In this document: in pieces, positions 1,263 to 23,771 of the stretch
Layout of the letters: the number at the start of each line of letters is the position of its first letter
Numbering within the stretch: the first letter of the stretch is position 1
From: a virus
Length of the DNA stretch: 23,771 nt
Virus record (IMG/VR): IMGVR_UViG_3300008450_000452
Location: 1 to 23,771 of that record
Strand: one strand, 5' to 3'
The notes under the pieces: model-generated
What the model saw: only the letters and a program-made list of their open reading frames with translations
Databases searched by the model: none
Told to the model about the DNA's origin: nothing
Made by a program: the position numbers and the translations under genes

Positions 1263-4200
1263 TGGCAACTATATTTTCAAAATCAGGTTCATTTTATGGA
1301 ACAGCTTCTTTTTATGATCCTAATATTTGGGATGGTGGAATTGTTCCAACAAATGATGATTCGATTTTTATTAGAGGTATTCAAAAAACAGTTTCTCAAA
1401 ACTATACATACTGGGCTGGTACTCAAAGTTTTTTTCTACTTAATAATACAACTGATTTACCTCCTACAGGTTCTTTATATACTTACACTGATAGAGATCA
1501 ATTAGTAAAATTAGATTACAGAGGTATTTCAGCATCTGCTTTATTAGCAGTTACTGTAGATAAATCTGCAAGTTATCCTTGGGGTGAAGATTTTTATAAC
1601 GGATACGTTAGTAGACCTTTTGGTGGTATTGGAGATGCTTCTTTCCCATCTAAAAAAGGAGGTTCAATATTAAATAATTCTATAATCCAATATAGACCAG
1701 GAACCATTGTGTTATCTGGTTCAGCAACAGCAAGTATTTTAAGAACAAATATTGAATTTGGAGGTGTTTTAGAATTAAGAGATTCAAGTACTTATTATAT
1801 AAATAATTATATTACAGCTAGTGGAGGTACGTTTGCTATGTATGATTCATCTAGTGCTATATGGAATTTACCATGGCCTTCAGCTTCTGATGCCAACACT
1901 CCTGAATCAGCTTTAAATACAAATGGATATCCTTTATTTTCAGCTAGCTTTATAGGTGTAGTTCAATCTCCTTTTTCCCAACTTATATTAGAAGGAAGCG
2001 AAGTTAGAACTAATACTACTTTAAGTTTAAATGTATCTTTTGGAGATGCTTATTTGTCTGTAGTATCTGCTTCTAAATTTGAAGTAGGAGATATGATTTT
2101 TGTAGGAGAAGAAGATATAGATTCCCCTAGAGAAGATAATGGTATAAAAAGCATATATGGTGATAATTTATCTTCATATGATGAAAACTTTATAGTAGCT
2201 GGTAAAGATATAGGAAGTGTTCCTAATAGATTATATATTCAAAGAATGAATGGGCTAGAAGGAAAAGTTTTAGCTACATCCTCAGCAACTGAACTTATAG
2301 TAGATGAAGATAGATATCAAGTAGGAGATACAATAGTTGTAAATAATCAAGTAAGAACTATAACACAAATAGATGATTATGATTTACTTTTAAAAGATTA
2401 TGACTTTACAGATCCTTCAGCTTCTTTAAGCGAGTGGGAAGTTGATCCAACAAGAGGACCTTCATTTCAAAACTGGAATATAGCTCGTGGAAAAGGTTTA
2501 ACATTACAAGCAACAGAGGCTTTAAACTCATTTCGATCAACTTATATTAAAAATCTCTTTTTAGAAAGGGTAAAAATAGAAGCCTGGGTAAGTAACCAAA
2601 CACCAATTTCAGGTGGACTATCTTCTCCTGCTTTTAGAGATCAACAGCCCTATGCTGTTGTTGCTCATGCTGATCCTTTAATAGATAATGATATAACTAC
2701 TATGGTTGTAGGAACCGTTTATGGTCAACCAGCTTATAGATCATATATGGGAATTAATCCTAATGCCACCTCATCTTTTATGGCATCTAAAAACTCAGTT
2801 AGCAATGCTTATTCTGCAAAACCATATATTATAGGTATTAAAGATATAGAAGATGAGCATAAATTAACTTATGAAAATTATAAAGGATTTTCTAAAGGTT
2901 ATATTGATGATATATTAATATTTGAAGAAATAAATAGAGGAGGCAGTTGGGGAAGAGTAGGTATTAATACTACTAACTATAAATTTATATGTACAAGATT
3001 TAAAGTATATAATAAATGCCAAAAAATCACTCTTAATTCAGGAGTAACAGTTTCTATAAATGATAAAGTATTTGAAACAGGAGCAGAATATACCCATAAT
3101 TCAGGGCATAAAGTTATTAAATTAAGTTCAACTATAACTAATACTTTAGATTTAAAAAATAAAGCATTTGCTTTTCAAGGTGCTGAAGAATATGAAAATA
3201 ATGGAGTTTACCCTTATATTTACTCTATTAACCAAACTCAATCAATAAGAGTAGTAGCTGATGTTGCACAAACCCAATATGGTCTTCCATTAGTAGATAA
3301 TTATGTTCCATCTATAAATGGTTATCAACTTCCAACTCTATCACCATCAATGAGTTTTACTTTTGATCTAACTACTACAATGTCTTTTAACTATTTTGGT
3401 TTTACAGACAACTTTATTCAATTTGGTCAAGATTATACTTCATCCGAAAATGGTGGTTTATCATTATCTGGTTCTAATGATTTATTTAACTGGACCCCTA
3501 TAACAGGAGGAGCAGATTTTAGAAGAAGATATACTCAAGGACATTTAAGAGATTGGAATTTACCTGTTACTCACTCCTTTAGATATTTAAGATTCCAATT
3601 ATCTGCTGTTACTAATGGAAATCCTAACCAACAAACTTATAATTTATCTAATGGGTGTTTAAAAAGTTTTGTTATAAGAAGTGGTAGTTTAAATACGTTT
3701 GTTGTAAATAATGCTTCTGATTTAAATATTGGAGACCATATAGGAATATATCCTACTAACCCACCAGGTACCCTAAGTGCAAACCGTTCATTGAAATATT
3801 CATTTTTAGTACAACAAAGTTCATCAATTGACCCACCTGAAGATTATTTTGTAATTACCGGAAAAAGCGGAAATACTTTGACAGTAGATAAAAATATTAA
3901 TTTTACAGTTAATAAAGGATCTTATGTAGTTAAATTAAATAGAAACATAAACATTTATGGAAATTATGCTTCTGGTTCATTAAGAACAGGAAGAATAGGG
4001 GTGTATGGTGTGAATAATACCACATTTCAATCATTTTATAGATGGAAAAATGTAGCTATTAGACATGTAATTGATGGTTTTCCTAACTTTAGCGGAAATA
4101 CAAATACAAATCAATCTACTAACTACGGTAGTATAGGAATACAATATAATAATTCATGGATTCCTTGGAGATTGCAGGGATGTTCTTTTTATGATATAGG

Positions 4201-5554
4201 ATTAAATGGTGGATTTAACTGGGGTATTTCATTTAGTATTGGTAATAACAAAGGAAATATTCATATAAGAGGAAATATATTTCATTTTAATTTTAATCAA
4301 GGAACAGGTGGTCTAAATTCTGTCAACTTACCATATATAATAACATCAAATTTCTTCACATATAGTGGTAATGGAGCTGGGATTTATAATTTTTCTGGAT
4401 TACATATAAACTCATATAATGTATATATAGGAATCAACACTCCTATAGGAACATATTTCCCTCAGAATCGTAATTTTAGTGCAAATGGGTTTGAATATAT
4501 GGGGGGAAGACAAATTGTTATAAGAAATTATAATAATACTGTTTTTAATATAGCCACTATTCAAACAACTAATGATTCCACAACTACTGGAAATACGGGA
4601 TATTACTCAGATATGTACGTAGATAATGTAGTAAAAGGAAATTATCTAATAAATGGATTAAGTACAATAGCTCAACAACCAGTAGTTAACTATTTTACTA
4701 ATATATTTTCTCCTGTAGAAAACATGATGTTACCTGCTAGAGGCGGAATTGATGGTAATTATCATACTACTAAAAATCCATATGGTTTAATAAACTTTGC
4801 TACCAACATACCTCCAGGTAATTTAACTAGTTATTACAAAAATTATAATAAATGGGGATATGATGTTTATACTAATAATAGAGGTTGGATAATAAAAGAA
4901 CCAAATAACGATTGGTATAAATTTTATCATTTTTCTTCTAGTTTAATAACAGGTGTTGGTAACTTAGCTGATACTCGTAACTTGTTTATGTCGGCTAATG
5001 TTCATATATTTGACACATCAACAGCCTCTTTTACAGTAGGATTTGATTATTATAATGATACAAGCCAAATTGTTCAAGATAGAAGTGCTTTAGCATTTAA
5101 TTTAGATAATTCTTTTATATATTATGATTATACTCCTGTAGTTGATGGATTAGCACCTTGGACTTATACTCAAAGTATTAGTTTTGTTCCTTCTAGTGCT
5201 TCATATGTTGGTGGATTAGTATTGCAAATTTATAAAAATGGTAATCTTTTAGAAAATCCTCTATTATTACCTAAAAGAGCAGAACCAACTCATTTTGAAT
5301 ACACATTTAATCTATCAGGATCTGGACTATATCAAATTGGTTTAGCTCAAGATGCTTCTCCCCAAGGATATTTAGCTATGAAGAATATTTGGAGTAGATT
5401 TAATGGACCACAAACAAGTAGTGTTATGGTAAAACAAAATACTTTTACTATGGCTATGTTTGGTGGTGCTGATGCTCAACAATATAGAAATGTTAATAAC
5501 CAATATCCTCAAGTAAATCCTAAATTTAGATTAAAAGGCGCAAAATTATTCTAA
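1262..5554 (+). CDS. Giant G8/CEMIP-like beta-helix adhesin or tail spike (paralogue 1)
   Basis: A 1430-residue virion protein, probably a receptor-binding spike. Apparent domain order: residues 17-210 G8-like (NIWDGGIVPTNDDSIFIRG, then GG-centred beta repeats such as INNYITASGGTFAM); 250-380 two 'VGD' beta modules (KFEVGDMIFVGEED, RYQVGDTIVV); 385-590 a LamG/concanavalin-like sandwich (GYIDDILIF, WGRVGI); 660-805 a discoidin-like domain (GFTDNF...LSGSNDLFNW...FRYLRFQL); 815-900 another GD module ending VVKLNRNINIYG; 905-1200 a parallel beta-helix; 1230-1400 a C-terminal sandwich; final residues FRLKGAKLF. The G8, then 'LNRN', then beta-helix order recalls CEMIP/TMEM2-type proteins, but the RYPIHFH motif typical of that family is not seen, so enzymatic activity is unproven. 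It is paralogous along its full length to the 1347-aa protein at 5824. Confidence 0.6.
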   Translation: MATIFSKSGSFYGTASFYDPNIWDGGIVPTNDDSIFIRGIQKTVSQNYTYWAGTQSFFLLNNTTDLPPTGSLYTYTDRDQLVKLDYRGISASALLAVTVDKSASYPWGEDFYNGYVSRPFGGIGDASFPSKKGGSILNNSIIQYRPGTIVLSGSATASILRTNIEFGGVLELRDSSTYYINNYITASGGTFAMYDSSSAIWNLPWPSASDANTPESALNTNGYPLFSASFIGVVQSPFSQLILEGSEVRTNTTLSLNVSFGDAYLSVVSASKFEVGDMIFVGEEDIDSPREDNGIKSIYGDNLSSYDENFIVAGKDIGSVPNRLYIQRMNGLEGKVLATSSATELIVDEDRYQVGDTIVVNNQVRTITQIDDYDLLLKDYDFTDPSASLSEWEVDPTRGPSFQNWNIARGKGLTLQATEALNSFRSTYIKNLFLERVKIEAWVSNQTPISGGLSSPAFRDQQPYAVVAHADPLIDNDITTMVVGTVYGQPAYRSYMGINPNATSSFMASKNSVSNAYSAKPYIIGIKDIEDEHKLTYENYKGFSKGYIDDILIFEEINRGGSWGRVGINTTNYKFICTRFKVYNKCQKITLNSGVTVSINDKVFETGAEYTHNSGHKVIKLSSTITNTLDLKNKAFAFQGAEEYENNGVYPYIYSINQTQSIRVVADVAQTQYGLPLVDNYVPSINGYQLPTLSPSMSFTFDLTTTMSFNYFGFTDNFIQFGQDYTSSENGGLSLSGSNDLFNWTPITGGADFRRRYTQGHLRDWNLPVTHSFRYLRFQLSAVTNGNPNQQTYNLSNGCLKSFVIRSGSLNTFVVNNASDLNIGDHIGIYPTNPPGTLSANRSLKYSFLVQQSSSIDPPEDYFVITGKSGNTLTVDKNINFTVNKGSYVVKLNRNINIYGNYASGSLRTGRIGVYGVNNTTFQSFYRWKNVAIRHVIDGFPNFSGNTNTNQSTNYGSIGIQYNNSWIPWRLQGCSFYDIGLNGGFNWGISFSIGNNKGNIHIRGNIFHFNFNQGTGGLNSVNLPYIITSNFFTYSGNGAGIYNFSGLHINSYNVYIGINTPIGTYFPQNRNFSANGFEYMGGRQIVIRNYNNTVFNIATIQTTNDSTTTGNTGYYSDMYVDNVVKGNYLINGLSTIAQQPVVNYFTNIFSPVENMMLPARGGIDGNYHTTKNPYGLINFATNIPPGNLTSYYKNYNKWGYDVYTNNRGWIIKEPNNDWYKFYHFSSSLITGVGNLADTRNLFMSANVHIFDTSTASFTVGFDYYNDTSQIVQDRSALAFNLDNSFIYYDYTPVVDGLAPWTYTQSISFVPSSASYVGGLVLQIYKNGNLLENPLLLPKRAEPTHFEYTFNLSGSGLYQIGLAQDASPQGYLAMKNIWSRFNGPQTSSVMVKQNTFTMAMFGGADAQQYRNVNNQYPQVNPKFRLKGAKLF

Positions 5555-8800: not shown

Positions 8801-9867
8801 ACTCTAACTTTGCATCACCAATTATTGCTACCGGAAATATTATTTATGGTGTAACATCACAAGCAGGTTTACCAACAAATTTTAGTCAAACTATTTATTC
8901 ATATAATATGAACTACGCTGGAGGTAATATTCCGTTACCTTCAACTACCGGTTATAATGCTAAGTATACTACTCCATATAATTCAATTTATTTTGTAAGA
9001 AGAAACCATGTTGAAGGAGCTACAGGAACTATGACTTATGCTCAAACTATTACTAATTTTGGTACTCAATATACTATAATTATAGATAATAATAGATTAG
9101 GATTTATACACCAAGCAAACGGTGTTTTATTCTTAAACTCATATTTAGATAAAGCTTTTGAAACACCCTTTTTATTACCTAAAAGAGGCGGATTTGATGG
9201 TAGAAGATTATCTACAACTAACCCCGGTGTAAACTTTGCATCTTTCACAACAGCTTCTTATACTTTACCTCAACATAATCTTACTGGTTATATTAAAAAC
9301 CATAATAGATTAGGATACGATATTTGGTCAAATCCTTTAGGTTGGTGGGTAAAACCCCAAGATGATCCTTACTATAGATTTTATAGATTTTTTGTAAGTG
9401 ATTGGAGAGACCCAATGTTAGGATCTTATTTGTGGTTAAATGAAGGTGTAAGTGCTAGTTTTGATGTTAATTTTGATTATTATGTAACCCCATCTATAGC
9501 ATGGCAGGCTGAACAACAATATAGTGGTGCTTTGTATATGATTGTTTTGAAAAATGGAGGTGAGTTGCAAGAACAATTTACTTTACCTAAAGTAACATCC
9601 CCAACAAACTTTAGTAGAACATTTAGTTTAACAGGATCTGGCCACTTCCAAATAGCATTAGCTGGTTTAGCTACACAAAACGGATATGCTGCCTTTGCTA
9701 ACATTTCAAGTAGATTAGTTGCTCCTAATACTCACGATGTACAAGTATTTTCTAATAATTTTAATTTAAGATATTTTAATAATGAAGAATTATTAGATGC
9801 TAAAACAATGTACAATCAAACCCCAACCGATCCGTTATTTAGATTAAAAGGAGCTAGAATATTCTAA
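5824..9867 (+). CDS. Giant G8/CEMIP-like beta-helix adhesin or tail spike (paralogue 2)
   Basis: A 1347-residue paralogue of the protein at 1262, collinear from end to end. Matching landmarks include ASWNDTSIWYGGIVPTASDQ (G8-like start), GDEVRTNTILSQSANIGDHY, ATASATELIIDGERFKAGDK, GYVDDTLIFDE with WGRVGL (LamG-like), FNRVGFLES...GIQFSGSNS...YRFLRIET (discoidin-like), DTVVKLNRQLKFSG leading into GRIAVLGSG, a beta-helix with VQGCTFYNN, FLLPKRGGFDGR, and the same C-terminal ending FRLKGARIF. The G8-like and GD modules and the C-terminal end are best conserved, while the beta-helix region (about 860-1100) has diverged most. That pattern fits a shared virion-attachment and folding frame carrying different receptor-binding faces. 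No catalytic residues can be named. Start is at a TAATG overlap; the stop overlaps the next start the same way. Confidence 0.6.
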   Translation: MPVRFAISGAFYPGNSASWNDTSIWYGGIVPTASDQVYIRGLRTTVNLAGGYLPFFDTQSITVASTVGFPISGSFYTYTDRDEELKFNYITCSATSFISASIDLSYYSWSYSVYPLTQSLPSKLGGTIPNGAYVQFRPGTIFITPAMGEIVLTSSLTDPALTIENGGDVRMRSGSSLGLGGYLLLNDGTFTMTGSGLFRFNNNYPSQSAEGGVIRNINGIVANDQNLQYLIVEGDEVRTNTILSQSANIGDHYITVNSTTGFAIDDDIFVGEKNLSQSRTDNGFRGQYVGAFSSWDECFEVASVDAGLKRLYIKRFRGLDANIKATASATELIIDGERFKAGDKVLINNELRTITSVTSSYDYLLKDYNFSTGSDLSDWTTDITRSVNYNDWTLSSSYGLTQFTTTAYRHIFVRDIMLDNVKVEAWISNLRGISAGSASRNEYGVYIQSEPSVDTDLGIPTSTNQPLRTAFTIVPSVSRMNLRQKNVDNDVILNVYTGSYPIDGLKKITLESTRGMVRGYVDDTLIFDEVIRNTPYWGRVGLYTNGNDAFVCTQYKVYAKYTKITVDSPITVAINDVIKETGVEYSHASGNQVIKLTSTVTDPLEFKDLAFAYRGAEEYQITSSDQGIFPFVYATNSSGSFNLDWTRFTLNVGDYVTGYALGTGFTRSVILDFGKPVTFNRVGFLESVLTNGQSFTASRGIQFSGSNSVTGSALAFTASNWVALTSSITDFRRRTSNETFRSFNIGGPHTYRFLRIETQGLTQATTADNTFRSFRVRLNYSNSIQLNNTSDLNIGDEIALISRYNIAPISAITNYSSLLFASSSLTTASFLDSFTQHYKIISKSAGNVIFLDQPFEEGSPEKGDTVVKLNRQLKFSGSFNSSSAAWDVGRIAVLGSGTARFVRRIKFDNASFQHLVGQFPSVGGTAAQLPYSGFTLNEQNWYNYMGLVQGCTFYNNYNFTAAGFGLLFFNRSGYATRHNFISGFHTIQLTGVNSNFASPIIATGNIIYGVTSQAGLPTNFSQTIYSYNMNYAGGNIPLPSTTGYNAKYTTPYNSIYFVRRNHVEGATGTMTYAQTITNFGTQYTIIIDNNRLGFIHQANGVLFLNSYLDKAFETPFLLPKRGGFDGRRLSTTNPGVNFASFTTASYTLPQHNLTGYIKNHNRLGYDIWSNPLGWWVKPQDDPYYRFYRFFVSDWRDPMLGSYLWLNEGVSASFDVNFDYYVTPSIAWQAEQQYSGALYMIVLKNGGELQEQFTLPKVTSPTNFSRTFSLTGSGHFQIALAGLATQNGYAAFANISSRLVAPNTHDVQVFSNNFNLRYFNNEELLDAKTMYNQTPTDPLFRLKGARIF

Positions 9868-11249
9868 TGGGAAAAGATATAAGAATATATCCATCACAAA
9901 GCCAAGTACTATTCTCAGGAAGTAGCAATGAAATACTGGCTTCAATTAGTACAGATAATATGGGTAACCTTATATTATCAGCATCTAATGATGTGTTATT
10001 TGGTCCTGGTAAAAATGATATTTACATAGGTGATGGTACCCAATCAGCTAATATTATTTTTGATATTGATGGCGCTATTAAATCAGCACCAGGCAGTGGA
10101 GCTACAATTACTTTAGGTTCTACAGATACTCCTATTGTAATTACTGGTAGTACAGTTGATATTGCTGGGGGAAATTTAGAATTAGGAACTTTTACTGCTT
10201 CTTACGCTAAAATATCTAATGCTTCTTTAACTGGTAGTTTATCTGCTAGTTATGTATTTACTCCTATATTAAGTGCAAGTAATGCTAATATAGTTAATAT
10301 TACTACAAGTAATATAACGGCATCCACATTAACTCTTCTACAAAACCAAGGATTATATTTTAATTATAGTTCATCAGTTACTGGTGGAGCTATATTTTTA
10401 GATAATTTAGGAAACCTTGTATTAAATAGCAATTCAGGTAGTGTTTATTTATCAAAAGGAGTCCAAGATGTTTACATAGGTGATGGTACTAGCTCAGCAA
10501 ATATAGTATTTGATTTTGATGGTGCTATTAAAGGTGAAGATGGACAAAATGTATTTTTAACAGTAGGTTCTTCATCAACCAGATTATTAATAACAGGCAG
10601 TACTTTAAATATAGGACCTTTTACTGCTTCTTATGCTAGAATTAATGATGGTGCTATAACTGCTAGTTTTGTAAGTTCAAGTGGACCTATTACCGCAGCT
10701 AATTTAACTGTATCAAATTCTATATCAAGTAAAACAATAAATTCTAACACAGGTAGTTTTGGGTATTTTACATCAAGTGTAATTAACTTAAATCCTAATG
10801 GGGGTATTTATATTACAAGCAGTGATGGGACTAAAGGCGGTAGTATTTACTTAGACCCTGTAGGAAATTTACAATTCACATCAGTATCAGGAAGTGTATT
10901 TTTAGGAAAAGGCACTGGAGACATTTACATCGGAGATGGTACCTCATCAGCAAATATTATTTTTGATCAAGGTGGAGCTGTTAAAGCAGGAAATGGTGTT
11001 ATATTAAATATAGGTTCAAATTTATCTTTTATAGAAGCAACAGGTTCAATAATTACTCTTCAGAAAAATGGAGGTAATGTTGTAATCAGTGGTTCTTTAA
11101 TAGCATCTAGTTCAAAAGTATCCCCAACTTCATCAGGCATTCCTGCATTTACGGGAACAGACGGACAATTTATGTTTGGAAGTTCAGGAGGTAATCATTA
11201 TATTTACGTGTGGATGAGTGGTGCTTGGAGATCAAGTTCTTTATTGTAA
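9867..11249 (+). CDS. Modular tail fibre with three 150-residue repeats
   Basis: A 460-residue fibre-like protein made of three homologous modules. Each contains a GNLxLxS...G strand pair, the motif D[IV]YIGDGT.SANI.FD, an A[IV]K turn, and an ITGS-type strand. The motif begins at residues 51, 201 and 352, so the period is 150-151 residues. The first two modules are followed by FTASYA[KR]I linkers. The C-terminal knob (about 415-460) reads PAFTGTDGQFMFGSSGG...YVWMSGAWRSSSLL and is a plausible trimeric tip. The gene is joined to the preceding adhesin by TAATG and is the last gene before the neck cassette. No enzymatic motif is visible. It is probably a tail or collar fibre; the position just upstream of gene 13 is that of fibritin (wac) in T4, but I see no sequence similarity to fibritin. 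Confidence 0.65.
   Translation: MGKDIRIYPSQSQVLFSGSSNEILASISTDNMGNLILSASNDVLFGPGKNDIYIGDGTQSANIIFDIDGAIKSAPGSGATITLGSTDTPIVITGSTVDIAGGNLELGTFTASYAKISNASLTGSLSASYVFTPILSASNANIVNITTSNITASTLTLLQNQGLYFNYSSSVTGGAIFLDNLGNLVLNSNSGSVYLSKGVQDVYIGDGTSSANIVFDFDGAIKGEDGQNVFLTVGSSSTRLLITGSTLNIGPFTASYARINDGAITASFVSSSGPITAANLTVSNSISSKTINSNTGSFGYFTSSVINLNPNGGIYITSSDGTKGGSIYLDPVGNLQFTSVSGSVFLGKGTGDIYIGDGTSSANIIFDQGGAVKAGNGVILNIGSNLSFIEATGSIITLQKNGGNVVISGSLIASSSKVSPTSSGIPAFTGTDGQFMFGSSGGNHYIYVWMSGAWRSSSLL
10017..10967 (+). repeat. Three copies of the YIGDGT module motif
   Basis: Copies of a 16-residue motif begin at 10017, 10467 and 10920, that is 450 and 453 bases apart. The copies have diverged at the DNA level, so the duplication is old. 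They mark three internal modules of the fibre gene. Confidence 0.8.
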
Positions 11250-12965: not shown

Positions 12966-13816
12966 TGGCTAAACAAAGAAAACCTATACCAAAAACACAA
13001 AAAGAGATAGCTAATTCTTTAGTAACTCCTTATGATCAAGAACAAGGTAATCCTAATAATGCTGTTCCTAATCCAAAAAATAGAGCATTACAACAATCTT
13101 GGAGAGATGATACTGTAAAACCATACACTGTTGGTATTCAAGACATTGATGAGGCTGTTTTTTATTATTTAGAAAATGTTATTAAACCAACTGTAATACA
13201 AAATGGTGAATCAATTCCTGTTCCTGTGTTATATGCTTCTCCTGAAAAATGGAAATCATACCAAAAAGATGGATATTTAAGAGATTTAAAAGGTAGCTTA
13301 ATGGCTCCTTTAATTATTTTTAAACGTAATAATATTGAAAAAAATAAATCATTAGCAAATAAATTAGATGCTAATAATCCTAACAATTATGGAATATTTC
13401 AAAAATCATATGACCCAAGAAATGCGTATGATAGTTTTTCTGTACTAAACAATAGAAAACCAGAAAAACAATATTATGCTGTTGTTGCTCCAGATTATGT
13501 AACTATAACTTATTCATTTATTATTTTTACATATTATGTAGAACAATTAAATAAAATAGTTGAAGCAATGAATTATGCTTCAGAAGCATACTGGGGTAAT
13601 CCTGAACGTTTTAAATTTCAAGCTAAAATTAATTCATTTGGTTTTCAAACTGAATTAAATGAATCCGCAGAACGAGTAGTTAGAAGTACATTTGATGTTA
13701 ATTTGCATGGTTATATTATACCTGATACTATACAAAAAGACACAACAGCTATTAATAAATTTAATAATAAAACTAAAACTACAATCTTTTTTGAAACTAC
13801 TGATAGTATAGATTAA
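12965..13816 (+). CDS. 15: Tail sheath stabiliser gp15 homologue (tail terminator)
   Basis: A 283-residue homologue of T4 gp15 (272 aa), which forms the hexameric ring on the head-proximal end of the tail, stabilises the sheath and connects tail to neck. Family landmarks appear in order: IPVPVLYASPEKWKSY at about 79-94 (T4 IRVPITYASKEHFM), DYVTITYSFIIFTYYVEQLNKIVEAM at about 177-202 (T4 MIYELSIFTRYEDDMFQIVEQI), and VVRSTFDVNLHGYIIPD near the C-terminus (T4 RIEWSLTFEVNGWMYPP). The first 50 residues are basic and polar and probably flexible. Translation is likely coupled to gp14 upstream and to the large fibre gene downstream through TAATG overlaps on both sides. Confidence 0.9.
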   Translation: MAKQRKPIPKTQKEIANSLVTPYDQEQGNPNNAVPNPKNRALQQSWRDDTVKPYTVGIQDIDEAVFYYLENVIKPTVIQNGESIPVPVLYASPEKWKSYQKDGYLRDLKGSLMAPLIIFKRNNIEKNKSLANKLDANNPNNYGIFQKSYDPRNAYDSFSVLNNRKPEKQYYAVVAPDYVTITYSFIIFTYYVEQLNKIVEAMNYASEAYWGNPERFKFQAKINSFGFQTELNESAERVVRSTFDVNLHGYIIPDTIQKDTTAINKFNNKTKTTIFFETTDSID

Positions 13817-16266
13817 TGGCCCTACTAACAAAACCTGGTTTAATACAATTAAAAATTGAAGACAGCGGGCAACTAATAACTACCCAAGTCAATAAAATCA
13901 ATTTTTCAGGGTCAGTTTCTGCTTCTGTAGGAAATTTTAATGATGTTGTAATAACAGTAGGAGTTCCAGATACTGCTTCTTGGGCTATAAGTGCCTCTCA
14001 AGCAATAAGTTCTTCTTATGCTTTAAGTGCTTCTTATGCTTTAAGTGCTTCTAGTGTTGTAAGTGCTTCTTATGCTTTAAGTTCATCATTTTCATTAACT
14101 GCTTCTTATGCTGCTAATGCTGCTTCTTTTCCGTATACTGGATCTGCTCAAATTACTGGGTCAGTAGGAATTACTGGATCTTTTGATCAATCGGGTTCTT
14201 CTAATATATTTTTAAAAGGTTTAATAAATCAAACAACAGCACAATCGCATGTTGTTACTTTTAACAATACAACTGGTCAACTGTTTATTACCGCGTCATC
14301 CGCATTTGGTGGTGGAGGTGGTGCTGGTACACCTGGAGGCGCTAATACAACAATACAATTCAATGATGCTGGTGTATTAAGCGGTAGTGGAAATTTTACT
14401 TTATTAGGAAGTAACGCTGTTAGTTTAACTGGTTCATTATTAGTGACAGGATCTACTAGATTAATAGGTAATATTACTGGATCTTCTTTCACAGGTTCAT
14501 TTACTGGATCTTTATTTGGAACTAGTTCTTGGGCAGTATCAAGTTCACGAGCAATAAGTGCATCTTATGCAGCTACATCCTCTTATGCTCAAAATATAAT
14601 AATTTCAGGATCAATAAATAATGTAGATTATATTGATTTTAATACAGGGTCTGCTGTACCGGCTTGGAAATCAGGTAGGGTATTCTGGGATAATACAGAT
14701 GGGGCATTATCTGTTTATAACTTTGAACAAGATATTACTCTACAGGTAGGTCAAGAAAACTGGACTAGAGTATCAAACCGTACAGGAACTACTATAACTA
14801 ACGGTACTGTAGTTAGACTTAAAGGGGCACACGGGGATGTACCAGAAGTAGAATTAGCTCAATCATTATTAGTATCAGGTAGTGTTAATCTTCAAAATCA
14901 AATTTTGGGTGTTGCAACTCACGATATTGAAGATAACTCAAAAGGTTTTATTACCACTCAAGGACTAGTAAGAGGGTTAAACACAAATGCTTTTAATGAC
15001 GGAGATACTTTATTTGTTGGTACTGGATCTGCTGGGATTTTACAAAATACACCACCCGTTGCTCCTTATGAAATTATTCCTGTTGGTGTTTGTGTAAAAG
15101 CATCACCTGGAACAAGCGGAATCATATATGTTGCTGTACAAGAACCAATAGATTTTAGTGATTTAAGTTCTGTATTAGTGACTGGTTCTTATCATTATGG
15201 AGATATTTGGACTTATATTCCAAGCGGATCTACAGGTGTTTGGGCCCATACAAACCAACTTTCAGGGTCATACGGATTAACAGGTAGTTTAGAAGCTACT
15301 TCATTTACCGGTTCATTTACCGGTTCATTAACAGGAACAAGTTCTTTTGCTATAAGCAGTTCTTGGGCTGTAAGTGCTTCTAGAGCAATAACATCATCCT
15401 TTGCTTTAACCTCTTCTTGGGCTATAAGTTCATCTGTTGCCTTAAGTTCTTCTTGGGCGGAAAGTGCTTCACAAGCAATAAGTTCTTCTTATGCTTTAAG
15501 TGCTTCTTATGTTTTAAGTTCATCTTTTGCTTTAACAGCGTCAAATGCTAATTCATCAAGTTTAGTTTATATTGCTTCAAATCCATCAACTGATGTAAAT
15601 TATACTTTAGTATTTAAAAACAACTCATCTGCTTTAGACAATTATCATCCTTTAGCAGCTGATGGTACTAATGGTCCTTACTATAATCCTTCAACTAATA
15701 TATTAGGAGGAGTAGGAGGAATAACAATGTCTGGAAGTATTGGTAGATTTAATACTATTACAGGCAGTACATCTATTACAGGTTCATTAACCGGTTCATT
15801 ATTAGGTACAGCTTCATTTGCAACTACTGCTTCTTTTGCCTTATCAGCCAGAGCATTCCCATATTCAGGCTCAGCTGAAATTACAGGATCTTTAGGAGTT
15901 ACAGGAAGTATTTATCAAATCTCACCATCAACACAAACATCAGCAAGCCAAGAATACATTGATATGACTATAGGTCTAGGTACAGTAGCTATATTTAATA
16001 AACCTTTTGCTATTCCTATGTCTGTATTTTTAGAATATTTTATTATCGACACTATATCAGGAGCAGATCAAAGAGCAGGAACTATAATGGCCAGTTTTAA
16101 TAATACTGGCACTCCAACTGAAGTGTTTACTGAAACCACCACTAATGATATAGGCAATACTACAGCTATGACTTTTGCTGCTGTTTCAACTCCTAATTTT
16201 GAAATCCAAGCAACTAACACTGGAGCTAATGTTTATCAACTTAGAGGTACTCTTCGATATTATTAA
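13816..16266 (+). CDS. Large repeat-rich tail fibre with an embedded conserved domain
   Basis: An 816-residue fibre. The N-terminus (1-50; MALLTKPGLIQLKIEDSGQL) may anchor it to the virion. It then carries hexapeptide arrays of the form [ST][AS]S-x-A-[ILV] at residues 53-106, 236-259 and 508-579, and a FPY[TS]GSA-x-ITGS module at 105-122 and 681-698. Between arrays lies a non-repetitive domain (about 268-455) starting near VDYIDFNTGSAVPAWKSGRVFWD and containing VGQENWTRVSNRTGTTITNGTVVRLKGAHGD, a LGVATHDI strand and IPVGVCVKA; I recognise this domain type from other phage fibres but know no activity for it. The C-terminal domain (about 700-816) is a probable beta-sandwich tip (GTIMASFNNTG...YQLRGTLRYY). 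It begins directly on the gp15 stop codon, so it is expressed with the neck genes. Confidence 0.7.
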   Translation: MALLTKPGLIQLKIEDSGQLITTQVNKINFSGSVSASVGNFNDVVITVGVPDTASWAISASQAISSSYALSASYALSASSVVSASYALSSSFSLTASYAANAASFPYTGSAQITGSVGITGSFDQSGSSNIFLKGLINQTTAQSHVVTFNNTTGQLFITASSAFGGGGGAGTPGGANTTIQFNDAGVLSGSGNFTLLGSNAVSLTGSLLVTGSTRLIGNITGSSFTGSFTGSLFGTSSWAVSSSRAISASYAATSSYAQNIIISGSINNVDYIDFNTGSAVPAWKSGRVFWDNTDGALSVYNFEQDITLQVGQENWTRVSNRTGTTITNGTVVRLKGAHGDVPEVELAQSLLVSGSVNLQNQILGVATHDIEDNSKGFITTQGLVRGLNTNAFNDGDTLFVGTGSAGILQNTPPVAPYEIIPVGVCVKASPGTSGIIYVAVQEPIDFSDLSSVLVTGSYHYGDIWTYIPSGSTGVWAHTNQLSGSYGLTGSLEATSFTGSFTGSLTGTSSFAISSSWAVSASRAITSSFALTSSWAISSSVALSSSWAESASQAISSSYALSASYVLSSSFALTASNANSSSLVYIASNPSTDVNYTLVFKNNSSALDNYHPLAADGTNGPYYNPSTNILGGVGGITMSGSIGRFNTITGSTSITGSLTGSLLGTASFATTASFALSARAFPYSGSAEITGSLGVTGSIYQISPSTQTSASQEYIDMTIGLGTVAIFNKPFAIPMSVFLEYFIIDTISGADQRAGTIMASFNNTGTPTEVFTETTTNDIGNTTAMTFAAVSTPNFEIQATNTGANVYQLRGTLRYY
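13972..14133 (+). repeat. Hexapeptide repeat array A (18-bp unit)
   Basis: Nine consecutive six-residue units such as TASWAI, SASQAI, SSSYAL, SASYAL. Some neighbouring units are nearly identical in DNA (GCTTCTTATGCTTTAAGT recurs), which points to recent expansion or gene conversion. Confidence 0.8.
14521..14592 (+). repeat. Hexapeptide repeat array, short
   Basis: Four units (TSSWAV, SSSRAI, SASYAA, TSSYAQ) following a SFTGSFTGSLFG segment. The same order is found at 18469 in another fibre gene. Confidence 0.75.
15337..15552 (+). repeat. Hexapeptide repeat array B (18-bp unit)
   Basis: Twelve units of the pattern [ST][AS]S-x-A-[ILV], for example SSSWAV, TSSFAL, SSSYAL. It follows a SFTGSFTGSLTG segment. 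Unit length is constant at 18 bases with no frame breaks. Confidence 0.8.
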
Positions 16267-16304: not shown

Positions 16305-16628
16305 ATGGCTGGTGAATTTAAAGTAAAAAATGGACTTATTGTTTCTGGTTCCACACGTGTTTCGGGATCAGTAATAGCAACCTCATTTACAGGATCCTTT
16401 ACAGGTTCATTTGCTGGTATAGGTGCCTCAAATATAATTTCTACTGGTTCTATAACAGCTTCGGTAAACCAAACCCCTAATTTCTTTTTAATCCAATCAG
16501 GTTCAAGAGAATTATTTAAAATAAATACAGAAGGTACTATACAATTAGAAGCAAGATTAGCAACCCCAACCGCTATTACTGGAGGTATATTTTATTCTAG
16601 TTCAGGTGAATTTTTCTTTGGAATATAA
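16305..16628 (+). CDS. Small fibre-like virion protein
   Basis: A 107-residue protein beginning MAGEFKVKNGLIVSGS and continuing with TGSF-type fibre repeats (SFTGSFTGSFAG at about 27-38). The second half (about 55-107) is a compact beta domain with FFLIQSGSRELFKINTEGTIQL and the C-terminal segment GGIFYSSSGEFFFGI. It looks like a minimal fibre: short shaft plus tip. An overlapping eight-codon reading frame from the upstream ATG at 16289 cannot encode it, and the start at 16305 gives the fibre-type N-terminus. It is probably a tail accessory protein; function beyond this is unknown. Confidence 0.6.
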   Translation: MAGEFKVKNGLIVSGSTRVSGSVIATSFTGSFTGSFAGIGASNIISTGSITASVNQTPNFFLIQSGSRELFKINTEGTIQLEARLATPTAITGGIFYSSSGEFFFGI

Positions 16629-16629
16629 A

Positions 16630-16637
16630 TATTTATA
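16630..16637 (+). promoter_or_regulatory. TATTTATA octamer within a palindrome
   Basis: The 14-bp palindrome TATAAATATTTATA (16624-16637) contains TATTTATA and, overlapping it, the canonical T4 late promoter octamer TATAAATA. The ATG at 16649 lies 11 nt downstream. Confidence 0.5.
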
Positions 16638-16648
16638 ATAAATAAATC

Positions 16649-17806
16649 ATGGCAAGCTGGAAAAAAGTCATAGTCTCAGGTAGTGACGCAATATTAAATC
16701 AATTAAATGTAGGTACTAATCAAGTAATTACCACAACAACTCCCTTAACTTCAACCAAAATAACAGGTTCATTTACAGGTTCGTTCTTTGGTGATGGTAC
16801 TGGTATTACAGGTATAACAGCTACAGGCCTAAACATTCCTGGTACAGTAACTGTTATTACAAATGAACCCTTTGTAGTTTCAGGTTCAGCAGCATTACAA
16901 AAAATTACTTTATCAGATGTATTAACACAAATTACAGGTAGTACAGACGGTGGTTTAACAAAAAGCGGAAGTAACGCTTTACGTATAGATACAGGTTCAT
17001 CTCATTTTGTAACTGGTTCTAGAAAAGCTATTTTTGAAACAGGTCAATTTGTAGATAGTGCAAATATTGATTTTACAGTAACTTCTGGTGTATCTGTAAC
17101 TGGTGTTCTTATAAGTGGTAGTGTTCAAGTAGGTCATTTAAATGTTAGTTCTTCTACAATAGGTGCTACTACAGTAACTTTAGGACAAACAGCTGCTTCT
17201 TTAATAGGATTAACAAACGTTTACTCAACAAACTTATCTGGTTCTAATATTACAGCTTCTGGTTTATTACATGGTACTAATATATCAGCAGCTACTAGCA
17301 TATTAATTCCATCAGGTTATATTACAGCAGGTTCACCCGCTGGTGCTCCTAATACTCCTGGTTCTATACAAGGTGCTTTAGGATTCTTTACTTCTGCTAC
17401 TTTAGGTAGTGCCAACATTACAAATGATATGACTGTTGGAGGTAACTTAACAGTTAATGGTACTACAACATTTATTAATACTACTAATACTTACTTAAAG
17501 GACCAATTCTTAACTTTAGCATCAGGTTCAACAACTTTAGTAGATAGTGGTTTATTAATAGCCTCATCCTCAGCTAACGTAGGTAACGCTATTTATTTAG
17601 AATCAACATCAACAGGTAATTATGGTAGATGGGCAGTTGCTTATAATGTATCAGGTTCAGCAACATCCGTAACTCCTGATTCTTATGTAGTAACAGTATC
17701 ATCATCTACAGCCGCTCCTTCAGGTACTCCAACTTGGGGTAATACTAATGGATTTGGTAATATGCATATCAATTCATCTGACGAATCAATTTGGATTTAT
17801 TCTTAA
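16649..17806 (+). CDS. Tail fibre protein with SWKK N-terminal anchor
   Basis: A 385-residue fibre protein. The N-terminus, MASWKKVIVSGSDAIL, is shared with the fibre at 18367 and is probably the virion attachment segment. A Gly/Ser/Thr beta-repeat shaft follows, including SFTGSFFGDGTGITGI at about 42-57. A conserved block at about 265-330 reads VGGNLTVNGTTTFINTTNTYLKD, LTLASGS, VDSGLLIASSS and GRWAVAYN; this resembles a segment I recall from many T4-like phage fibre and whisker proteins. The C-terminus (THFGN-like segment GFGNMHINSSDESIWIYS) may be the tip. No enzymatic residues are visible. It is probably a structural tail fibre, with the precise virion location unknown. Confidence 0.65.
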   Translation: MASWKKVIVSGSDAILNQLNVGTNQVITTTTPLTSTKITGSFTGSFFGDGTGITGITATGLNIPGTVTVITNEPFVVSGSAALQKITLSDVLTQITGSTDGGLTKSGSNALRIDTGSSHFVTGSRKAIFETGQFVDSANIDFTVTSGVSVTGVLISGSVQVGHLNVSSSTIGATTVTLGQTAASLIGLTNVYSTNLSGSNITASGLLHGTNISAATSILIPSGYITAGSPAGAPNTPGSIQGALGFFTSATLGSANITNDMTVGGNLTVNGTTTFINTTNTYLKDQFLTLASGSTTLVDSGLLIASSSANVGNAIYLESTSTGNYGRWAVAYNVSGSATSVTPDSYVVTVSSSTAAPSGTPTWGNTNGFGNMHINSSDESIWIYS

Positions 17807-20223: not shown

Positions 20224-21921
20224 ATGGCATCAACTTTAATATCACCTGGCGTACTTGCTTTAGAAAATGACCAGTCATTTATCACCCAACAACCTGTAAC
20301 TGTTGGAGCCGCTATTATCGGTCCTACAGTAAAAGGTCCTGTTGAGGTTCCAACAATCGTTACTTCATATAGTCAGTATCAAAATATTTTTGGTGCTACT
20401 TTTACAAGCGCAAGTAATGTTTACACTTATTTCACATCAATAGCTGCTTACAACTATTTTAACAATGGTGGCGAAACCTTATTAGTATCAAGGGTCACTT
20501 CAGGATCTTTTACTTCAGCTACTACTTCAATTAGTGGAAGTAACACATCTGGATCGTTCATATTAGAAACTCTTTCTGAGGGTATTATAATGAATAGCTC
20601 AAGCTCATTAGACATTTCAGGTTCATTAGCTTCAGGTTCATCAGATAATATTAGATGGGAAATACAAAATGCAGATACCTCTTCAGGTACTTTCTCATTA
20701 TTAATTAGACAAGGTAATGACAATACAAATGATCCTATTATCCTTGAAACTTGGACTAACTTATCATTAGATCCTTTTGCTCCTAATTACATTTCTAAAG
20801 TAATTGGTGATTATGATTTAAATTACAACAGTACTACTAATCAAATTACTGTATCTGGATCTTATCCAAATGCTTCTAAGTATATTAGAGTTAAATCAGT
20901 ACTTTATCCTACCCCTAATTATTTTGATAATAATGGTACTGCTAAAACTGCCTTTACTCCTTATATTCCTTCAAACAATAGTGGTTCATTTGGTTTTGCT
21001 GTAGGATCTATTTCTGCAAACGGCCAATACTATGATCAAATCACAGATGGTAACAGAGCTCAAGGTATTCCTAGTGCTAGTTATAACAATATGATTAGTT
21101 TATTATCTAACCAAGATGATTACAGATTTAATGTATTGTTAACTCCTGGATTATTTAATTCATTACAAACTTCACAAGTAACTTCTATCATTTCAAACAC
21201 CCAAAATAGAGGAGATAATATTTTTGTATTAGATTTAGCACCTTATGGTTCTACTGTATCTACTGTAGTTACTCAAGCTGCTTCTCGTAACACTTCTTAT
21301 GCTGCTTCATACTGGCCTTGGTTACAAACAATTGATCCTGATACTGGAGCAAACGTTTGGGTACCTGCTTCAACTATGATTGGTAGTGTGTATGCCTATA
21401 ATGATTCTGTATCTGAACCTTGGTTTGCACCAGCAGGTATTAACAGAGGAGGATTAGGTAATGTAATTAGAGCAGAACAAAAATTATCTCAAACTAATAG
21501 AGATACTTTATACACAGCTAAAGTTAACCCAATCGCTACTTTCCCAGGAACAGGTGTTGTAGTTTATGGACAAAAAACATTACAAACTAAAGCTAGTGCT
21601 TTGGATCGTGTAAATGTAAGAAGATTATTAATTTCTTTAAAATCTTATATTTCTCAAGTAGCTAATAACTTGGTATTTGAACAAAATACTATTGCTACTC
21701 GTAATAGTTTCTTATCTCAAGTAAACCCATACTTGGAATCAGTACAACAACGTCAAGGTTTATATGCTTTTAAAGTAGTAATGGATGATACAAACAATAC
21801 AGCTGATGTAATTGATAGAAATCAATTAATTGGTGCTATTTACATTCAACCTACTAAGACTGCTGAATTCATTTATTTGAACTTTAACATCTTACCTACA
21901 GGAGTTACTTTCCCAGCATAA
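20224..21921 (+). CDS. 18: Tail sheath protein (T4 gp18-like)
   Basis: A 565-residue contractile tail sheath subunit; many copies surround the tail tube and contract to drive it through the host envelope. The N-terminus LISPGVLALENDQSFITQQP has the 'SPGV.x.E.D' signature of sheath proteins, and the C-terminal conserved domain (about 395-565) is typical: WFAPAGINRGGL at about 400, FPGTGVVVYGQKTL at about 440, DRVNVRRLLISLKSYI at about 461, and FLSQVNPYLESVQQRQGL near 500. The middle (about 85-260) is the variable, surface-exposed insertion region, rich in Ser, Thr and Gly. It is shorter than T4 gp18 (659 aa), mainly because the outer domains are smaller. Two octamers precede it, and the tail tube gene follows as in T4. 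Confidence 0.95.
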   Translation: MASTLISPGVLALENDQSFITQQPVTVGAAIIGPTVKGPVEVPTIVTSYSQYQNIFGATFTSASNVYTYFTSIAAYNYFNNGGETLLVSRVTSGSFTSATTSISGSNTSGSFILETLSEGIIMNSSSSLDISGSLASGSSDNIRWEIQNADTSSGTFSLLIRQGNDNTNDPIILETWTNLSLDPFAPNYISKVIGDYDLNYNSTTNQITVSGSYPNASKYIRVKSVLYPTPNYFDNNGTAKTAFTPYIPSNNSGSFGFAVGSISANGQYYDQITDGNRAQGIPSASYNNMISLLSNQDDYRFNVLLTPGLFNSLQTSQVTSIISNTQNRGDNIFVLDLAPYGSTVSTVVTQAASRNTSYAASYWPWLQTIDPDTGANVWVPASTMIGSVYAYNDSVSEPWFAPAGINRGGLGNVIRAEQKLSQTNRDTLYTAKVNPIATFPGTGVVVYGQKTLQTKASALDRVNVRRLLISLKSYISQVANNLVFEQNTIATRNSFLSQVNPYLESVQQRQGLYAFKVVMDDTNNTADVIDRNQLIGAIYIQPTKTAEFIYLNFNILPTGVTFPA

Positions 21922-21963: not shown

Positions 21964-22452
21964 ATGGCAGTATTAAATCCAAACGAAATATTTTTCACCG
22001 CCTTTGAACCAAAACAGGCTAACCGCTTCATCATGTACATTGATGGCATTCCTGCTTATGAAATTAAAGGTGTAGGTGCTATAACAGTAAGCCAAGGTAC
22101 TGTTCCTTTGAACCATATCAATATCCAAAGATTTGTTAAAGGAAAAACCACTTGGGGTACCATCCAGTTCACATTGTTTGACCCTATTACTCCATCAGGT
22201 GCTCAAGCAGTAATGGAATGGGTACGTTTACACCATGAGTCAGTAACTGGACGTGATGGTTACAGTGATTTCTATAAGAAAGATTTAACTTTCGATGTAT
22301 TAGGTCCTGTAGGTGATATTGTATCTGAGTGGGTTATTAAAGGTGCTTTGATTACTGAAGCTAACTTTGGTGATTATAACTGGGATACTGAAAATACTGC
22401 TGTAAACCTTACTATGACTGTTCAGCCTGATTACTGTGTGTTGAACTTCTAA
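21964..22452 (+). CDS. 19: Tail tube protein (T4 gp19-like)
   Basis: A 162-residue tail tube subunit (T4 gp19 is 163 aa). Hexamers of it stack to form the inner tube enclosed by the sheath, through which DNA passes. Features typical of the family are FEPKQANRFIMYIDGIPAYEIKG at about 14-36, a beta-hairpin loop PLNHINIQRFVKGKTTWGTI, the helix SGAQAVMEWVRLHHESVTGR at about 79-98, DLTFDVLGPVGDIVSEWVIKGAL, and the C-terminal strand NLTMTVQPDYCVLNF. It directly follows the sheath gene, the usual order, and is followed by a strong terminator. Codons are richer in C at the third position than in neighbouring fibre genes, consistent with high expression. Confidence 0.95.
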   Translation: MAVLNPNEIFFTAFEPKQANRFIMYIDGIPAYEIKGVGAITVSQGTVPLNHINIQRFVKGKTTWGTIQFTLFDPITPSGAQAVMEWVRLHHESVTGRDGYSDFYKKDLTFDVLGPVGDIVSEWVIKGALITEANFGDYNWDTENTAVNLTMTVQPDYCVLNF

Positions 22453-22545: not shown

Positions 22546-23310
22546 ATGGAAGAAAATAAGTTTAAATTCCCTACAGAAATAGTGGAATTGCCTTCAAAAG
22601 GCTTACTGTATCCCGAAGGTCATCCTTTAGCATCTGGAAAAGTTGAAATGAAATACATGACTGCTAGAGAAGAAGACATTTTAACTAATCAAAACTACAT
22701 TAAACAAGGTATTGTAATTGATAAACTATTACAATCAATGCTTATCACTAAATTTGATTATAGTGATCTTTTAATTGGTGATAAAGATGCTATTATGTTA
22801 GCTGCTCGTATTTTAGGTTATGGTAAAGATTATTCATTTAGTTATTATCCAGAATATAATGACAATGAAGAAATTATTACTGTTGATTTAACTTTATTAA
22901 ATGAAAAATTAATTGATGAAAAATCATTAGCTGAAAAAGGTAAAAATGAATTTTCTTATAAACTTCCTAATACAGGTAATGTAATTACTTTTAAATTGTT
23001 AACTCATGGTGATGAGCAAGCAATTGAAAAAGAAAACCAAGGTTTAAAGAAAATTGATCCTAAAAGTAACTCTGAAGTAACAACAAGATTACGTCATACT
23101 ATTTTGTCTGTGAATGGTGATTATAATCCTAAAACTATTAGAGAATTTATTGAATATGGTTTTCTAGCTAAAGATTCAAGAGCATTTAGAGAACACTTTA
23201 ACTCAATCAGCCCAGGCATTAATTTAAAGTATACTTATACTTTTGATAATGGTGTTGAGGAGGACATCACTGTACCTGTAGGTGTTAACTTTTTTTGGCC
23301 TGACGCCTGA
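22546..23310 (+). CDS. gp26-like baseplate/tail assembly protein, candidate tail assembly chaperone
   Basis: A 254-residue protein of the T4 gp26 baseplate type, judged by KFPTEIVELPSKGLLYPEGHPLASG and MKYMTAREEDILTNQNYIKQ in the first 60 residues and a helical segment IVIDKLLQSMLITKFDYSDL after them. A central beta region follows (about 105-160), then a helical part including IREFIEYGFLAKDSRAFREH, and it ends VPVGVNFFWPDA. Its place, between tail tube and the probable tape measure, is where many phages encode the tail assembly chaperones. Another frame opens only 29 bases before its stop codon and continues for about 90 codons, as in chaperone pairs made by programmed frameshifting. Family assignment is fairly sure; the chaperone role is inferred from position. 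Confidence 0.75.
   Translation: MEENKFKFPTEIVELPSKGLLYPEGHPLASGKVEMKYMTAREEDILTNQNYIKQGIVIDKLLQSMLITKFDYSDLLIGDKDAIMLAARILGYGKDYSFSYYPEYNDNEEIITVDLTLLNEKLIDEKSLAEKGKNEFSYKLPNTGNVITFKLLTHGDEQAIEKENQGLKKIDPKSNSEVTTRLRHTILSVNGDYNPKTIREFIEYGFLAKDSRAFREHFNSISPGINLKYTYTFDNGVEEDITVPVGVNFFWPDA
23257..23310 (+). other. Candidate programmed frameshift site (+1 or -2)
   Basis: The downstream frame is blocked by TAG at 23279-23281, so any shift must occur between 23282 and 23310. In this window the upstream frame reads AAC-TTT-TTT-TGG, with seven T (23290-23296), and then GCC-TGA-T at the stop. A +1 slip of tRNA-Phe on the T run, or a +1 slip at the TGA as in prfB, would enter the new frame. Both routes give a product of about 341 residues. 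AGGAGG, a perfect Shine-Dalgarno-like sequence, lies at 23258-23263, which is remarkable where other genes lack one. Confidence 0.5.
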
Positions 23311-23572
23311 TTATAGGGGTAGTTTATTTACCCAAATCCACGAAATATTGTTTTACGGGCAAGGCGGTTATGATTATAACACAATATATAACATGCCAGT
23401 CTGGTTACGACAATTTACATATAAAAAAATTCTTGAACATTATGAAAAGAAAAATAATGCTTCTCAAACAAATACTGTTGAAGAATCTATTAAATCAATG
23501 AAATCAGCAGGTGCTGTTAATTCACCAAAAGTAAACGTACCTTCATATGTTACAAAGGCATCTAAAAAGTGA
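23282..23572 (+). CDS. Overlapping downstream frame, probable frameshift extension of the gp26-like protein
   Basis: An open frame of about 90 codons in +1 relative to the gp26-like gene. It has no ATG near its beginning; the first possible start is GTG at 23282, immediately after an in-frame TAG, 18 nt from AGGAGG. The encoded sequence is clearly protein-like: DYRGSLFTQIHEILFYGQGG, YNTIYNMPVWLRQFTYKKIL, then a Lys/Ser-rich tail (KSMKSAGAVNSPKVNVPS). From memory, the LFxQIHxILFxGxGG...YNMPxWLRxF pattern recurs in tail genes of T4-like phages next to gp26-type genes. It is probably translated as a C-terminal extension by frameshifting, and less likely as a separate GTG-started protein. It would be the analogue of the long (GT-type) tail assembly chaperone. 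Confidence 0.65.
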   Translation: MLTFFGLTPDYRGSLFTQIHEILFYGQGGYDYNTIYNMPVWLRQFTYKKILEHYEKKNNASQTNTVEESIKSMKSAGAVNSPKVNVPSYVTKASKK

Positions 23573-23608: not shown

Positions 23609-23771
23609 ATGGCTGAAAACATCCAAGATTTAAAAAAACAAATCCAAGAACTTCGTAGAGAAATAACATCTTTAGGGGGAGAATCTTTTAAAAACCTAAA
23701 CGCAGCAATTGAAGCTGCGGGTGGAGGTATGGAAGGAGCTAGAAAGGTGCTCACCCGTATGAAAAAAGAAG
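23609..23771 (+). CDS. Probable tape-measure protein, 5' end only
   Basis: The first 54 residues are visible before the window ends. They begin MAENIQDLKKQIQELRREIT with clear heptad spacing, followed by SLGGESFKNLNAAIEAAGGG and a basic segment. A helical, coiled-coil N-terminus directly after the tail assembly (gp26-like) genes is what is expected of a tape-measure protein, which sets tail length and is enclosed in the tube. The assignment depends on position; the visible part alone could belong to any coiled-coil structural protein. The leader lacks a Shine-Dalgarno sequence. Confidence 0.5.
   Translation, partial: MAENIQDLKKQIQELRREITSLGGESFKNLNAAIEAAGGGMEGARKVLTRMKKE

Follow-up and report, generated by a model that had tools for sequence, protein, structure and literature searches.

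Gene organization around the ORF1/ORF2 junction

The window, that is, the whole 23,771-nt stretch of viral DNA analysed here, carries near its end a series of plus-strand tail genes in the order sheath, tube, ORF1, ORF2 and a long gene (Table 1). A short ORF and a second ORF overlapping it are therefore placed between the tail tube and tape measure genes, as in classic tail assembly chaperone pairs; this order, pointed out in an earlier note on the same DNA, holds with the long gene taken as tape measure from the annotation of Flavobacterium phage immuto, in which the gene in the same place after ORF2 is so named. The start of the long gene, at 23609, is 57% identical over 54 aa to a protein of at least 899 aa encoded in the same place in another locus (L019). 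PHROG support for a tape measure protein is weak in the window's own lineage.

Table 1. Positions in the window of the features around the proposed frameshift site
Feature	Position	Strand	Remarks
Tail sheath gene	20224..21921	+	Context; Pfam Phage_sheath_1 E 6.9e-14; phrog_23 E 2e-73
Tail tube gene, gp19-like	21964..22452	+	Context; phrog_4542 E 2.7e-23
ORF1, gp26-like, proposed short chaperone ('G'), 254 aa	22546..23310	+	phrog_150 baseplate hub E 6.8e-10
AGGAGG, Shine-Dalgarno-like element, 26 nt upstream of slip site	23258..23263	+	Spacing of mostly 23-27 nt is conserved
TAG stop of the +1 frame ahead of ORF2	23279..23281	+	Read from the sequence
ORF2 (+1 frame), proposed 'T' extension	23282..23572	+	Conserved FFGLTPxYR...IHEI...GGYD...MPIWLR; profile match to gp51 C-terminal domain
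Slippery site TTT TTT TGG (T7 run)	23290..23298	+	Same site in 117/150 representatives, close variants in the others
Next gene, 5' end, probable tape measure protein	23609..23771	+	Runs off the window end

ORF1 ends with GCC TGA at 23305–23310, the TGA stop occupying 23308–23310, and shares 29 bases (23282–23310) with ORF2. The overlap contains AAC TTT TTT TGG CCT GAC GCC TGA in the ORF1 frame, with the T7 run at 23290–23296. The conserved part of ORF2 is not preceded by an ATG, and the first codon after the TAG is GTG. All positions given in the earlier note, among them those of the TAG and the AGGAGG, as well as its account of the overlap and the T7 run, were reproduced on re-reading the sequence.

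We propose that most ribosomes would stop at the ORF1 TGA and release the 254-aa gp26-like protein (G), and that a minority would slip +1 at TTT TTT TGG to produce a 341-aa G-T fusion. In detail, tRNA-Phe paired with UUU at 23293–23295 would re-pair with the overlapping UUU at 23294–23296, and the ORF2 part of the fusion would start with GGC at 23297 and end at 23569, so that the +1 product would have 250 + 91 = 341 aa. By analogy with gpG/gpGT of phage lambda, G would coat the tape measure protein and T would recruit tail tube subunits. We consider it very probable that ORF1 and ORF2 are such a tail assembly chaperone pair, made up of G and a minority +1 G-T fusion. The shift itself, its +1 direction, its efficiency and the chaperone function are inferred, not shown.

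Elsewhere in the window, large genes for probable virion proteins (9867–11249, 13816–16266 and 16305–17806) contain many short repeats of the SGS/TGSF type.

Predicted structures and function of the pair

ORF1 and ORF2 were folded apart, not as a fusion. The AlphaFold2 model of ORF1 had a pLDDT of 93.9 and matched T4-like hub assembly proteins in BFVD with E values of 1e-11 to 1e-13. Against the PDB, Foldseek gave no significant match to the model, and a sequence search with the ORF1 profile gave no match. Alignment of the model by VIA-align reached Z 2 for 5 of 812 chains, and the best two were YqbN (3klu, Z 5.8), which we take to be an XkdN-like tail chaperone, and the HK97 tail assembly chaperone (2ob9, Z 4.8), both aligned on ORF1 residues 1–97. 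Such similarity of a predicted fold to tail chaperones is suggestive and is not proof; it stays below a convincing level. ORF2 was predicted with moderate confidence as three helices.

It is conceivable that the frameshift is real but that it yields a baseplate hub protein together with a longer form of it, with a role other than tail assembly chaperone. In T4, the part that gp26 and gp51 play in hub assembly is said to be contradictory or unknown; by annotation gp26 belongs to the hub, where some genetic work has also put it (PMC3004832). On the other hand, the same source lists both proteins as hub assembly chaperones, with gp51 needed and yet not in the particle. Moreover, the gene order and the G/GT architecture fit tail chaperones, and the nearest solved folds, weak as the matches are, are those of chaperones. 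We regard a hub role as unlikely and keep the chaperone reading. A tail assembly chaperone role for proteins of the gp26 type, raised in the earlier note, gains from the weak structural similarity to HK97 and YqbN proteins and, as described below, from the -1 arrangement in most other T4-superfamily phages examined and from the paralogy of T4 gp26 and gp51; the function is nonetheless an inference.

Conservation of frame, slip site and codons

A tblastn search of phage records found few relatives: Flavobacterium phage immuto, Microcystis phage Mel-JY01, two uncultured phages, Rhodothermus phage RM378 and Streptococcus phage GXN1. IMG/VR contained several hundred. A profile search brought up 340 loci in which the junction could be read, and from these 150 representatives less than 85% identical to each other were taken; their identity to the window had a median of 57% and a minimum of 27%. 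The loci are related, so the counts given here overstate independence. Two single loci may be recorded. The gp26-like gene of Streptococcus phage vB_SagM-GXN1 (L005, ~4700–4740) ends with TTC TTT CGT CCC with the +1 frame open, and the host attribution of this phage looks odd for the gp26-like family. In LR756508 (W05), a 484-kb phage genome, a weak second match to the gp26 profile (E 0.003) lies at 284129–284401 inside a 617-codon frame.

The best match to the ORF2 profile was in the +1 frame in 147 of the 149 scorable representatives, and ORF2 of RM378 was also in the +1 frame with a weak match. Read in the zero frame, the site was TTT TTT TGG CCT in 117 of 150 representatives and TTT CTT TGG CCT in 14, including immuto; the remainder had rarer variants (TTT TTT TTC, TTT TTT TAC, TTC TTT TGG, TTT CTA TGG and others). 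Essentially every relative had a T-rich site where ORF1 meets ORF2. Elsewhere in the homologous ORF1s, T7 occurred only six times in 106 kb and never in frame as TTT TTT TNN; because it is so rare there, the T run at the junction cannot be ascribed to chance. The +1 frame was conserved from FFGLTPxYR on, exactly at the T run, and not upstream.

Codon choice just after the site was also constrained. The Pro following the Trp of the site was encoded by CCT in 147 of 147 cases, compared with 39% CCT elsewhere in ORF1, and this excess was about twice the largest among 192 other ORF1 columns. The Asp after the site was GAC in 112 of 113 cases, compared with 22% elsewhere. The constrained third positions of these Pro and Asp codons are the second positions of Leu and Thr codons in the +1 frame, by which they would be fixed, and this argues for translation of the +1 frame beginning at the T run. 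We take such translation as shown by sequence comparison, with a start codon neither needed nor generally available.

A programmed frameshift joining the two frames, as the earlier note had proposed, is strongly supported by the conservation of frame, site and dual-frame codons in about 150 lineages; there is no evidence at the protein level. Of the features singled out for comparison among homologues, the overlap, the T run and the AGGAGG all proved to be conserved, the T run with interrupted variants in some lineages. No natural in-frame ORF1-ORF2 fusion, such as the earlier note had suggested looking for, was seen among the loci examined. Downstream RNA structure as a stimulator was unsupported, as no strong structure was found and the mean z values (-0.57 and -0.27) were near those of the controls (-0.22 and -0.32).

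Direction of the proposed shift and other routes to ORF2

It had been proposed that the shift needed is +1 or -2 and not the usual -1. The placement of ORF2 in the +1 frame agrees with this, and the two possible directions can now be graded. By slipping -2 on the T run, as happens in phage Mu, ribosomes would make the same fusion with one extra Phe (342 aa). A slip of this kind has precedent in tail chaperones (PMC5009743), the T7 run permits perfect -2 re-pairing, and some -2 site exists in 310 of 328 loci. However, +1 re-pairing is possible in 328 of 328 loci, including the 18 that offer no -2 re-pairing, namely those with TTC TTT TGG (14 loci) and TTT CTA TGG (4 loci). We judge -2 rather improbable, and +1 is the most likely direction. 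In immuto and 13 other representatives the T run is broken as TTT CTT TGG, and CUU U resembles the +1 site of prfB. For the phage of the window, the predicted junction peptide is YTYTFDNGVEEDITVPVGVNFFGLTPDYR or ...VNFFGLTPDYR for +1, and ...NFFFGLTPDYR or ...VNFFFGLTPDYR for -2; immuto would have its own version.

That ORF2 is a separate gene with a non-ATG start, served by AGGAGG as its ribosome-binding site, is very improbable. A GTG does stand first in ORF2, and two distant lineages carry ORF2 with an ATG of its own. In the window, however, the in-frame TAG intervenes between AGGAGG and ORF2, and on this ground AGGAGG was rejected as the ribosome-binding site of ORF2. Furthermore, in 61 of the 150 representatives the stretch that begins at the upstream stop and runs to nine codons beyond the site is free of ATG, GTG and TTG, and in 14 the +1 frame is closed by a stop one codon ahead of the site. 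That conservation of the +1 frame begins exactly at the T run also speaks against a separate gene. Slippage of RNA polymerase, instead of the ribosome, on the T7 is hardly credible, since the 7-T homopolymer, although present in most relatives, gives way to an interrupted run (TTT CTT TGG, TTT CTA TGG, TTC TTT TGG) in many lineages whose frames are arranged alike.

The Shine-Dalgarno-like element

A possible stimulator of the shift, according to the earlier note, is the AGGAGG upstream of the site. It had been called exceptional in its region. The hexamer as such is not, as the window contains 10 plus-strand copies; few start codons there have a Shine-Dalgarno sequence, though, and the position of the element is conserved. 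AGGAGG occurred within 40 nt of the site in 66 of 148 representatives, compared with 0.3% of control windows. GGAGG or AGGAGG in the clade of the window lay mostly 23, 25, 26 or 27 nt from the site, and this spacing was kept whatever residues were encoded (EED, EEG, GEG, KEV, QEG, VED). Calculated anti-Shine-Dalgarno pairing at the element in the +1 clade had a mean of -7.1 kcal/mol against a background of 0.16 kcal/mol, and 78% of the loci were at or below -6 kcal/mol against 2% of the background.

Shine-Dalgarno stimulators are spaced 3 nt from the slip site in prfB and ~10 nt in dnaX. Because a spacing of 23–27 nt fits no known stimulator, the stimulatory role of AGGAGG is undecided. One untested thought is that an element at this distance could keep a following ribosome right behind another that occupies the slip site. 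Part of the motif persists in the two representatives that lack the slip site (L357 and L363, see below), and this cautions against tying the element wholly to the shift. Its effect may also depend on the type of ribosome, again untested, because Bacteroidia ribosomes normally hide the anti-Shine-Dalgarno sequence (PMC9976891).

gp26 and gp51 across the T4 superfamily

T4 gp26 and gp51 both matched PF12322 (E 9e-64 and 4e-52) and phrog_150, and gp51 alone extended into phrog_634, the 'baseplate hub assembly catalyst'. Judged from these profile matches, the two proteins are paralogues, with gp51 as the long form consisting of the gp26 domain and a T-like extension. Genes 26 and 51 of T4 are separate and divergently arranged. 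ORF1 matched PF12322 with E 2.1e-4 and 21.5 bits, under the cut-off of 24.5. ORF2 matched the profile of the gp51 C-terminus with an hhalign probability of 87% (E 3.9e-6, 48 columns), which is moderate evidence.

Cyanophage syn9 does not encode the phrog_634 domain as a gene by itself; the domain lies in the -1 frame and overlaps the gp26 end. The second ORF was in the -1 frame in all such gp26 loci examined, which comprised cyanophage-like contigs and the named phages syn9, P-SSM2, S-CRM01, KVP40, AS-zj, phiM12, RL38J1, IC12, Yut3 and D504, and the -1-frame proteins aligned end to end with the C-terminus of T4 gp51. Pairs with a U_UUU_UUC-type heptamer were found in cyanophages, KVP40 and Aeromonas, rhizobial and Stenotrophomonas relatives of T4. 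In nearly all -1 loci, the gp26 stop had NNT TTT TTC just ahead of it; the related heptamers T_TTT_TTT and T_TTT_TTG stood in phiM12 and RL38J1, respectively, and D504 had no such heptamer. Across 83 distinct heptamer loci, anti-Shine-Dalgarno pairing peaked 7–9 nt upstream with a mean of -6.7 kcal/mol, and 81% were at or below -4 kcal/mol compared with 9% of the background. A heptamer with a Shine-Dalgarno-like sequence 7–9 nt upstream is, as far as sequence can tell, what a stimulated -1 shift would call for. The heptamer pattern X_XXY_YYZ of a -1 shift, met in these T4-like phages, is not met in the window, where ORF2 is in the +1 frame.

It has been reported that cyanophage and vibriophage gp51 lacks ~200 N-terminal residues (Sullivan et al., PMC3037559). 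These residues would be missing because gp26 supplies them, joined by the frameshift. Annotations of gp51 that start at an internal ATG would then be truncated, as in syn9 (L098, 1189–1391), whose public annotation starts the second gene at an internal codon, and in immuto (L002, 4851–4961), whose second gene is annotated as a 36-codon fragment with an internal start.

The simplest reading is that gp26/gp51 are the gpG/gpGT chaperones of the T4 superfamily, made via a -1 shift, a +1 shift or gene duplication. T4 appears to have replaced the frameshift by gene duplication, leaving two separate genes. A fuller version can be offered only tentatively: gp26/gp51 would be the G/GT pair of the whole superfamily, -1 and +1 shifts, duplication (in T4) and separate genes would all be in use, and the +1 branch would have a stimulator ~26 nt upstream working by an undescribed mechanism.

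Relation to known systems

Like gpG/gpGT of lambda, ORF1 and ORF2 would give a short protein and a minority frameshift extension, encoded between the tube and tape measure genes. Lambda uses -1, whereas the window needs +1 (or -2) and its protein family is T4 gp26-like (PF12322/phrog_150). ORF1 is homologous to both T4 gp26 and gp51, and ORF2 matches the C-terminal extension of gp51 by profile; unlike the window, T4 has two paralogous genes without a frameshift, the long form being a single ORF. The pairs of cyanophages, KVP40, AS-zj, phiM12 and other T4-like phages share with the window the two proteins, the overlap, the T-rich site and the place before a long gene, but they use -1 with the element at 7–9 nt instead of +1 with the element at 23–27 nt. 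The prfB site has in common with window-type sites a CUU or UUU in the P site followed by U, with +1 re-pairing to UUU. It differs in having UGA in the A site and a Shine-Dalgarno sequence at 3 nt, whereas window-type sites have sense codons (UGG, UUC or UAC) and an element at 23–27 nt, so that the prfB-type combination of a Shine-Dalgarno sequence 3 nt upstream and a stop in the A site is not met.

Haloarchaeal myovirus HSTV-2 (+1) and phage Mu (-2) have tail-gene frameshifts that reach the +1 frame as in the window (PMC5009743); no sequence-level comparison was made. G/GT frameshifts in the -1, -2 and +1 directions are established for tailed phages, and a 2016 review of recoding described G/GT frameshifting as conserved in long-tailed phages 'except T4' (PMC5009743). 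We found no published gp26/gp51 frameshift in the open-access literature; subscription papers were not covered. As far as the open-access literature shows, it is new that the T4 superfamily has a G/GT pair with two shift directions, which in T4 itself seems to be split into two genes. Relatives of T4 do carry the signature of such a frameshift. This gives gp26 and gp51 a testable role and makes the pair well suited, as a natural system, to the study of how frameshift sites switch direction over evolutionary time.

Lineages without the slip site

A second ORF with its own ATG had been named beforehand as a case that would refute the frameshift. It does occur, in only 2 of the 150 representatives, and the slippery site is lost in both. 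In these loci (L357 and L363, ~2690–2760), ORF2 occupies a different frame and has an ATG of its own right after the ORF1 stop, and the site reads TTC TTG TAT CCT and TTC CTT TGG CCA GAT, respectively. L363 shows a relaxed codon constraint, which is what one would predict were the constraint tied to frameshifting. A second gp26 copy was considered as an explanation of L357 and rejected, as no second gp26 gene is present in its 187.8-kb contig. Since L357 has a separate ORF2 and no second gp26, the fusion is not indispensable everywhere, and both phages appear to manage with separate proteins. Going by their sequences, L357 and L363 are putative natural losses of frameshifting.

In Vibrio phage D504 (L185, ~3050–3090), gp26 ends with TCA CTT TTC AAG TAA without a T6 heptamer, and the second ORF in the -1 frame has an ATG overlapping the gp26 stop; this is possibly another loss of frameshifting.
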